A stretch of 64,000 nt of DNA, taken from Branchiostoma lanceolatum (lineage: Eukaryota; Chordata; Leptocardii; Amphioxiformes; Branchiostomatidae). The stretch is from NCBI RefSeq assembly GCF_035083965.1, contig NC_089731.1, forward strand, positions 4,627,001-4,691,000, given 5' to 3'. A program made the translations under genes and the position numbers. The notes beneath the pieces are model-generated. The model saw nothing but the letters and a program-made list of their open reading frames with translations. It had not been told where the DNA came from and searched no databases. Below, one piece after another: positions 16,318 through 19,300 of this stretch. The stretch's first letter is position 1. Every line of letters starts with the position of its first letter.

Positions 16318-19300
16318 TCACTGCCCTTTGACCTTTGGCTTGTTGAGATCATCTGGTCCAAAGCTACAGGGTAGCAGCTCCCCCACAGTCATGGCCCGGT
16401 ATGACAGGTCAGGCTTGGTCAGGTACACCGTCCAGTCTGTCCCAAACTACGAGCAGGACAAAACAGAAACATTTCAACAATTCTATTCCTCACTAGCCCA
16501 ACATCTGCGGACCCCCTAGAGTGATTCAATATTCCTCAGACAGCAGAGTTTGTATTACAGACTAGTTTACCACTACCTTATGAAAACGACCCCCACGAAA
16601 AACTGACAATCAATTGCAAGTTAATTCAATTGAAGTGATCTAGATTCATGTATCAATCTATTGGGAGCAGATTCTGCTAAAGGTACAAAATAGACCACTA
16701 CTACCGACCATACCAGTGCACAGGGTGGCCTGAGTCTTCAATTGTAACTTATCTGAACAAAATTTCATCCTTGGAAAGCCTTAGACAGCCCCACCTAATC
16801 ACACACCTGCTTGGTCCATCCGCTCTCCTGCATTATGCTCATACTCCATTTTTCCATTAAGAAACCGGTACTATTGCCAACATAATGGCACAGTATCATT
16901 CTGTAAGTGTAACTTACAATCCACTGCTCACCAAGTCACATGTTCTACTAGTTGTATCCAGTATTTGATTATCTATCTGCGTAATATGATGTCACAGAAG
17001 CTGTAGATTGCTCATTCCTTGACAAAGACTGGAGTTGATCGGTCGAAAAAATTTGGGTAAGTCCAATTCTTTGTGTCTGCAATTGCAGCTCAACTTTGAT
17101 TCATTAGGCCACGACAATTTAATTTATTGGTTAATGTTTTTTTTTAAATCTTAATAAAAAAAAAAAATCATGAAAACAGAAGGCTGGGGTGAAAACTTGC
17201 ACCTGACCCTGTTGACCCCCTGAAACTGTGTGCACCAAAGTACAAACTTTCCTCTGAGATTCTGTTCTCATGTTGATTTTCCAATCTAGCATTTTTTTCT
17301 AAATTCCGTTAACCAAGAAATTAAAATGGTGTGGCCTTATGGCTGAGTGTTATCCTTACCTCCCTCATGACCTGTCTGCAGCTGCCACAGGGTGCCAGGA
17401 ACTCACTCTCAACATTCCTGCAGGGCAGAGGCAGGAAACATCACTACATGGTATCTCATCTTTATGCACATGTAAAGTATTCGCATATTAAGTTAAGCAT
17501 ACTTTCATGAAAAAACAAAGCCTTTACGCATGCTTTAAGGCGTGTTTATCTCATGCACTGCTTGTGCTTAAGATAAAAGTCATTCAGAATTGAACAATGT
17601 TTGAAACTGCCCGATAGCATCGCTAAACAATGTTAAAGGAGTGGCATTGTGAAGTCATTGAACTGTACAAATGTTGAAGAGCTCCCAGCCTCATTGCTAG
17701 CCATATTGTTTGAGATTTATTCTATTGTGTCACCCAAAATCATGAGATCTGTTCTCAAATGCCGGAAATAAAAAAATACTGATGCATGCATGCTTCAAAA
17801 AACGTGGTTGTCAATGTCAATATCTAGATCTAGAATTTGTTTCCCAGAATATTTTGGCATGTGTTAAATGCATAACAGCCATTGGGCTAGCATTCAATAA
17901 GAGCTAACATTCGTAAAGCAGCATTCGTAAAGCAGCATCAGTGAGGCAACAATTGGAACAACAACATCTACTTGAGTATGATTTAATGAGCTTAAACGAT
18001 CATCACATCTTTCACAGAACCAGAGGGATACTGTGCACAAATAAAGAAGCTTCAAGCTTTGAATATACAAATTAGACTTAGCTGTCCAGGACAAACATCC
18101 AACCTTCAAACTTTTCTCACTTTTGAGATAATAACAGTGATAGTTTTATCAGTCCAAAGATGATTGTCTCATACCCAGCTATTGCAATGGCTCTGAATGC
18201 CTTGTACCCCTCTGACACTGCTTTGAAGATAGCTGTCCTCTCTGCACAACAACTCACAGGGTAGGCAGCGTTCTCTACATTGCAGCCTAGAATAAAGAGT
18301 GTAGACATTTTAAGTTGATCTATTTAAAAGCTAAATATAAAGAGAAAAGTCCCAAAGCATAGCAGTAACAGTAATGATGTTCCTTTATTTTGTCTTCCTG
18401 ATCCCAAACTTTCAATGAAAGTGTCATGGCGAAAAATATCTTGAGATAAAGAAATTTCAAAAAACATCTCAGATTTATTTGGAACATCTCAAGATTTTTC
18501 AAAGAATCTGAAGACATTTCATTAATAAAAACCTCAAGATTTCTTAGTTTTCGATGATGGATGAAGACTTCTCAGTTCAATTCAAGAATCAGACCCATGA
18601 CCTACTTCTCCTGGAGTCATTTTGAGCTGTTGAGTTGCATATAAGTTACTTTTACAAAATATCAGATATGCATGTTTAAACTGTACGAAATTAGAAACAT
18701 TAGTCCAAAATGTTTTGCCCAGTTCAAAATTGATCTGCTTATTGTTATCTATGAGCTTGTTTTGACATGAAATTGTTGCCTGGGTGCCATCCAGTTACAA
18801 TACCCACTTCCCTGATTTTTTTCAGGGCAGCAAGGTTAGGATCCACCGTAGTAATCAAATTGCACCGGGGCTAATGAAATTGATCAACGTTTCTGACCAT
18901 GCTTTGAGACACTTCTCCCTGTTTGCAGCAAGCTTGTGCACATACGTGGCCACAGCCATGGCTCTAAATGTCCTGCAACCCTCGGTAACAGCATTGAAGA
19001 TAGCAGTTCTCTCTGCACAGCAGCACAGAGGATAGGAGGCATTCTCTACATTACAACCTACAAGAAATCAAGATCGTCGTTACACCAATGTGGGGGACAG
19101 AGAAAAACACCCCGTTTATGTCAATGGAACAGCCATAGGAGTTGATAAGCTACTAGTAGAAAAGCAAGTAAGATTACCGGTACCCAATACTGTATGAAAA
19201 TGCCTGCTGCAAAATATCTACATCACGAATTTTCATGTTTTAATTTTGGTAATTTCTAAACAAAGTAAATTTTATAAAAGTTGGTAAAATACTGTCAATT

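Follow-up and report, generated by a model that had tools for sequence, protein, structure and literature searches.

Swaps between tandem duplicated exons form a recognised class, to which U2AF1, KHK and PKM belong. For the vertebrate splicing factor U2AF1, the accessible part of the report describes tandem homologous exons (Ab and 3) that differ at seven residues, stop codons that appear when both exons or neither are included, and decay of the wrong products (PMC5224494). Metabolic enzymes are represented in human by KHK, PKM and ACOX1, in which homologous exons are swapped at or beside ligand sites. Both forms of KHK keep the catalytic Arg108 and both forms of ACOX1 keep five predicted FAD-binding residues; the PKM forms differ at an allosteric ligand residue. 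Across human tandem-exon swaps, the exchanged regions hold 10.7% of predicted functional residues versus 14% of residues, and the segments tend to avoid ligand residues and mostly keep them where they overlap (PMC9741552, in the portion of the text available). An invertebrate example is the alternative oxidase of oysters, a metabolic enzyme with a duplicated exon 10 (AOXA/AOXB). The copies, which occur in two oyster species, differ at 14–15 of 41 residues, with changes around a metal-binding motif. These exons are terminal, the second form includes both of them, and their change in expression under air exposure has been measured (PMC5589949, as far as the text is available).

The locus described here lies in a window of 64,000 nucleotides from Branchiostoma lanceolatum and comprises a cytidine deaminase (CDA) gene on the minus strand that is complete with five exons, the third of which is present in two alternative versions, A and B:

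20802..20838, minus strand: CDA exon 1, coding part from the ATG (donor GTGAAA)
19876..19995, minus strand: CDA exon 2, 120 nt; its donor (CTG/GTATTG) is weak
18946..19057, minus strand: alternative exon A, 112 nt, with zinc ligand Cys66 and catalytic Glu68; the A-type exon is found in protein model P0002
18287..18945, minus strand: intron between A and B, 659 nt, donor not U12-like
18175..18286, minus strand: alternative exon B, 112 nt, used in protein model P0001
17360..17417, minus strand: CDA exon 4, 58 nt, constant, with zinc ligands Cys100 and Cys103 (PCGSC)
16318..16446, minus strand: CDA exon 5, coding part to the TGA

The arrangement resembles U2AF1 in its tandem homologous exons, in the stop codons that follow from joining both or neither, and in the handful of residues that differ; it departs from U2AF1 in that an enzyme active site is exchanged and in that decay of the wrong products is doubtful (PMC5224494). 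With human KHK, PKM and ACOX1 it shares the swap of homologous exons in a metabolic enzyme, although these belong to other enzyme families, and unlike the tendency of the human set the swapped CDA segment holds the catalytic glutamate and a zinc ligand (PMC9741552). The oyster alternative oxidase seems closest in spirit to the CDA pair, with the difference that the CDA exons are internal and must alternate to preserve the reading frame (PMC5589949). Also close are the tetrameric CDAs with the PDB entries 1MQ0 (human), 1ZAB (mouse) and 1JTK (Bacillus subtilis). None of these three genes is known to have an alternative active-site exon. The best-listed literature, covered as titles and abstract starts and thinly for subscription papers, holds no description of such an exon in an animal CDA, and the available part of PMC12343006 mentions neither amphioxus nor deaminases. 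This absence of an earlier description is a weak result, and the protein variants themselves are already known as NCBI isoform models.

We consider it very probable that A and B are mutually exclusive, tandem-duplicated active-site exons that are older than a split between amphioxus lineages, are both kept by selection and are used as alternatives. The active-site exon would have been duplicated in tandem before B. lanceolatum parted from B. floridae and B. japonicum, and purifying selection would have kept both copies. Splicing probably picks A or B, so that one gene could yield two slightly different enzymes. The zinc, catalytic and ribose-contact residues of the swapped segment are the same in both forms, and the differences at 11 of its 38 residues, including position 64, probably tune nucleoside selectivity or kinetics.

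The coordinates, the 112-nt lengths, the equal phases and the intact splice sites that the initial annotation had given for both exons proved exact. Both exons are entered in phase 1 after exon 2 (end 19876) and left in phase 2 into 17417. Exon A is preceded by TTTCTTGTAG and followed by GTATGT, exon B is preceded by TTTATTCTAG and followed by GTATGA, and each is thus bounded by AG/GT. In size, the catalytic exon and exon 4 presumably equal exons 2 and 3 of human CDA (112 and 58 nt, respectively). At the 5′ end, the two protein models disagree with the conserved methionine (MADK/MAEK): their starts lie 13 (P0001) and 34 (P0002) residues upstream of it. The 13 extra N-terminal residues of P0001 are in the same frame and can be read by eye from the DNA upstream of the ATG. 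Since this upstream stretch is poorly conserved between P0001 and P0002, the inner ATG (20838) may be the true CDA start.

Two candidate neighbouring genes were noticed on the plus strand. An ORF at 22071-22370 matches ribosomal protein L20 (PF00453) with 30.6 bits, just below the cut-off of 30.8, and presumably represents mitochondrial L20. A plausible first exon for it was seen by eye at about 21173 (plus strand), with its ATG some 335 nt away from that of CDA; the L20 gene and CDA are possibly a divergent pair that shares a promoter. Downstream of CDA and on the opposite strand, an ORF at 12634-13095 (plus strand) scores 59.7 bits for the galactoside-binding lectin family PF00337 and marks a galectin-like gene.

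The A-only and B-only joins are each open over 151 codons, giving a 151-aa CDA. Isoforms A and B score 155.7 and 153.4 bits, respectively, against the tetrameric model TIGR01354 (cyt_deam_tetra, cut-off 113.65), and 68.4 and 67.2 bits against the dimeric model TIGR01355 (cut-off 275). Both also match Pfam PF00383. The alignment of isoform A to chains 1MQ0 (human) and 1ZAB (mouse) is ungapped, and isoform B matches the same ranges. The CDA zinc motif CxE ... PCxxC, which comprises three cysteines and the catalytic glutamate (PMC6686228, available part), is present as Cys66-Ala-Glu68 in both exons and as Pro99-Cys100-xx-Cys103 in exon 4. According to the same source, the contacts made by this segment in Trypanosoma brucei and human CDA involve an Asn, a Glu, an Ala, the NH of a Tyr (to the 5′-OH), the zinc cysteine and the catalytic glutamate; by our own mapping onto amphioxus numbering, all of these residues are identical in A and B. 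In addition, every residue that is invariant in 137 comparison rows (146 proteins minus seven dropped by a motif filter and the two Branchiostoma rows) is kept in A and in B. Each isoform is therefore predicted to be a complete zinc cytidine deaminase of the tetrameric type. What is exchanged between them is the catalytic glutamate, one zinc ligand and the ribose contacts of a 151-residue salvage enzyme.

The two exons are clearly copies of one another. They are identical at 83 of 112 nucleotides, and 19 of the 29 differences fall on third codon positions; the exon A peptide finds exon B in tblastn with E = 4.75e-17. Repeat detection over 16000-21200 returned a direct repeat of 127 nt, consisting of the exon and 15 nt of flank. 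Because the likeness is limited to this stretch, the introns around A and B have diverged past recognition by the repeat-detection tool. No third exon copy and no second CDA gene were found in the window: all other tblastn matches of the exon peptides have E ≥ 0.10. The best of these outside the gene (exon A peptide, 43150-43212, E 0.10) was rejected as an exon copy; by eye the region resembles a polypeptide GalNAc-transferase. An ORF just upstream of it (42405-42902) matches glycosyltransferase family 2 and lies near a 376-aa open stretch with the retroelement integrase domains PF00665 and PF17921 (44030-45157, plus strand).

The initial annotation had taken equal length and phase as the hallmark of mutually exclusive exons. 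This does not hold, since any duplicated exon automatically keeps both, and these features alone prove only duplication. It is the synonymous-heavy pattern of change between A and B that argues for function of both exons. The comparison yields 16.5 synonymous and 12.5 nonsynonymous differences (dS 1.33, dN 0.158), with a significance of p = 4e-6 for the synonymous excess. When the same 29 changes were placed randomly, sequences that were free of stops and had 11 or fewer altered residues arose in 4 of 20000 cases starting from A and in 3 of 20000 starting from B. The encoded peptides differ at 11 of 38 residues, with split codons included. A dN/dS analysis had been suggested as a check; run pairwise between A and B it gives 0.12, which fits two maintained exons. 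With a dS of about 1.3, the duplicate is by this estimate old.

Protein databases add a second species to this picture. The best match to isoform B is P0001, a B. lanceolatum cytidine deaminase-like isoform X1 that is identical over 151 aa. P0002, labelled isoform X2, comes from B. floridae x B. japonicum and contains the A exon, in which 37 of 38 residues are the same. Of the 11 positions that distinguish A from B, it shows the A state in 10. Between the lineages, exon A thus differs at 1/38 residues, compared with 12/113 in the constant exons. The initial annotation had named decay of this exon in sister species as one result that would speak against the pair; no such decay is seen in P0002. 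P0001 and P0002 are the only Branchiostoma rows among the matches listed (about 8000 candidates scored per search), and six sequences stand behind each of the two clusters. Conservation of an alternative exon across species is accordingly observed for A only, from protein models, and one isoform is visible per species: B in B. lanceolatum and A in B. floridae x B. japonicum. The labels X1 and X2 imply further forms, but what sets these apart could lie in another part of the protein, such as the N-terminus.

In a tree of exon peptides with 27 other rows, the two A sequences group together (support 0.893) and are then joined by B (0.828), apart from the rest; the support is modest, as 38 residues allow. 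Cys65 and Phe73 are common to A and B and occur in 0/35 other animal rows, yet are present in other rows of the family. These 35 rows were hand-picked from the matches and consist of 34 named animals and P0003, taken as animal. The simplest history suggested by these sequences is a duplication inside the amphioxus lineage before the split between B. lanceolatum and B. floridae/B. japonicum. Outside amphioxus, a search with the exon A region of P0002 (E ≤ 1e-12, 7999 top word-sharing candidates) retrieved P0002 and two Timema proteins (P0147 and P0148). The latter were rejected as a parallel, as each chain contains two deaminase domains in tandem. P0121, in which the first part of the domain is repeated ahead of a full domain, was likewise rejected. 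All three look like fused tandem genes or prediction errors.

An alternative interpretation would be that a single exon serves as the functional default while its partner is rarely used or dying, or that each species uses just one. Tandem exon duplicates are common, and the single isoform visible per species would be expected under such a scenario. Exon A of B. lanceolatum also encodes an unusual Asn74, where 33 of the 35 animal rows have Lys and two have Arg (Asn occurs in 6/137 of all rows). A decaying copy is difficult to reconcile, however, with the age of the duplicate, with two exons that are free of stops, bounded by AG/GT and complete in all residues invariant among the 137 rows, with near-equal TIGR01354 scores, and with an exon A peptide that is all but unchanged in the sister lineage. 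We therefore regard this interpretation as improbable.

Mutual exclusion at the RNA level would follow from the reading frame. As the initial annotation had claimed, joining both exons breaks the frame: the A+B join is shifted and runs into a first stop after 129 codons. The join that skips both exons is also shifted, with a first stop after 69 codons. The A+B product lacks the PCGSC zinc half-site and the skip product lacks the catalytic exon. Since only the A-only and B-only joins keep the frame, a working mRNA would hold either A or B. In the wrong products, the stop precedes the last junction by only 49 nt (A+B) or 5 nt (skip). The usual limit for nonsense-mediated decay is 50–55 nt. Because both stops fall inside this limit, decay of the A+B and skip products is doubtful and cannot be assumed. 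Taken alone, the frame argument is consequently weaker than the initial annotation held. The gene makes a case for studying how an exclusive exon choice is kept up while decay of wrong products is uncertain.

How might such a choice be enforced? No U12 consensus is present at the donor of exon 2, of A or of B, which speaks against U2/U12 incompatibility, and the 659-nt intron between A and B is above the size limit for simple steric exclusion and thus not too short to splice. For these reasons, steric hindrance and mixed splice types explain nothing here. Competing RNA pairing was considered for three pairs of introns. Local intron-intron helices scored as high in 14, 25 and 37 of 40 resampled controls, and whole-intron duplexes scored as low in 6, 12 and 0 of 20. 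The pair with 0/20, formed by the intron from exon 2 to A and the intron from B to exon 4, is the least remarkable in the local helix test (37/40); its duplex score was therefore given no weight and is treated as unproven. Scored with a frequency table, the donors reach 3.1 (exon 1), −1.6 (exon 2), 1.3 (A), 0.1 (B) and 6.4 (exon 4). The weak donor of exon 2 may leave room for a regulated choice. One further element was found in the intron upstream of exon A:

19589..19723, no strand assigned: inverted repeat able to form a hairpin, with 40-nt arms that are 85% complementary and 55 nt apart

A 29-nt pattern taken from one arm matches only the two arms in the window (≤3 mismatches). The element is probably a small transposon remnant.

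Another idea accepts both exons as real and supposes that alternative promoters or first exons decide between them, or that a transcript with both is tolerated; exclusion would then not be strict. The N-terminus of P0002, a model from a hybrid, is longer and different, no cis mechanism of exclusion has been established, and wrong joins may escape decay. On the other hand, the protein segment encoded by exons 1 and 2 is common to both models, and joining A to B costs the protein the second half of its zinc site. We regard such an arrangement as very improbable. An assembly artefact in which two haplotypes of one exon were laid in tandem is barely credible even for amphioxus genomes, which are very heterozygous, given that 29/112 nt differ, that the likeness does not reach into the introns, and that a different Branchiostoma assembly has also yielded a protein model with an A-type exon.

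If A and B are mutually exclusive active-site exons, as we believe, the next question is what the exchange may do to the enzyme. Residue 64, two positions before the zinc cysteine, is Cys in A, Ser in B, and Gly in human and mouse. Its aligned counterpart in CDA_F14, a bacterial enzyme, is Thr51. This assignment follows from the alignment to 7zob (query 17 to chain 4), which has the same offset as the zinc cysteines 66 and 53; among the CDA chains of the structure list, 7zob alone bears the label metagenomic, and it was taken as CDA_F14. Thr51 of CDA_F14 may affect ribose binding, and its T51G variant lost several substrates and gained weak activity on CMP. CMP activity was also seen with Ppo C50T and was absent from Pco G70T, so that the mutant evidence at this position is mixed in the part of the study available (PMC9897663). 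The β3-α3 loop, which limits bulky substrates according to the same source, maps within the constant exon 4 by our own assignment. As far as the sequences go, it is therefore plausible that A and B differ in ribose-side selectivity and less plausible that they differ in bulk tolerance, since that loop is not exchanged.

The active sites of tetrameric CDAs are completed by neighbouring subunits. Cells that contain both forms might for this reason assemble mixed tetramers. Taken together, one gene might provide two CDAs of different nucleoside selectivity, with residue 64 setting the ribose side and mixed tetramers offering intermediate active sites, and could in this way act as a splice-tuned enzyme of pyrimidine salvage. 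We put this forward as a tentative proposal that is rather unlikely to be correct in full. Should the two forms indeed prefer different substrates, CDA selectivity could be compared in amphioxus between two naturally occurring states, which would be of relevance to how CDAs handle modified cytidines and nucleoside drugs.
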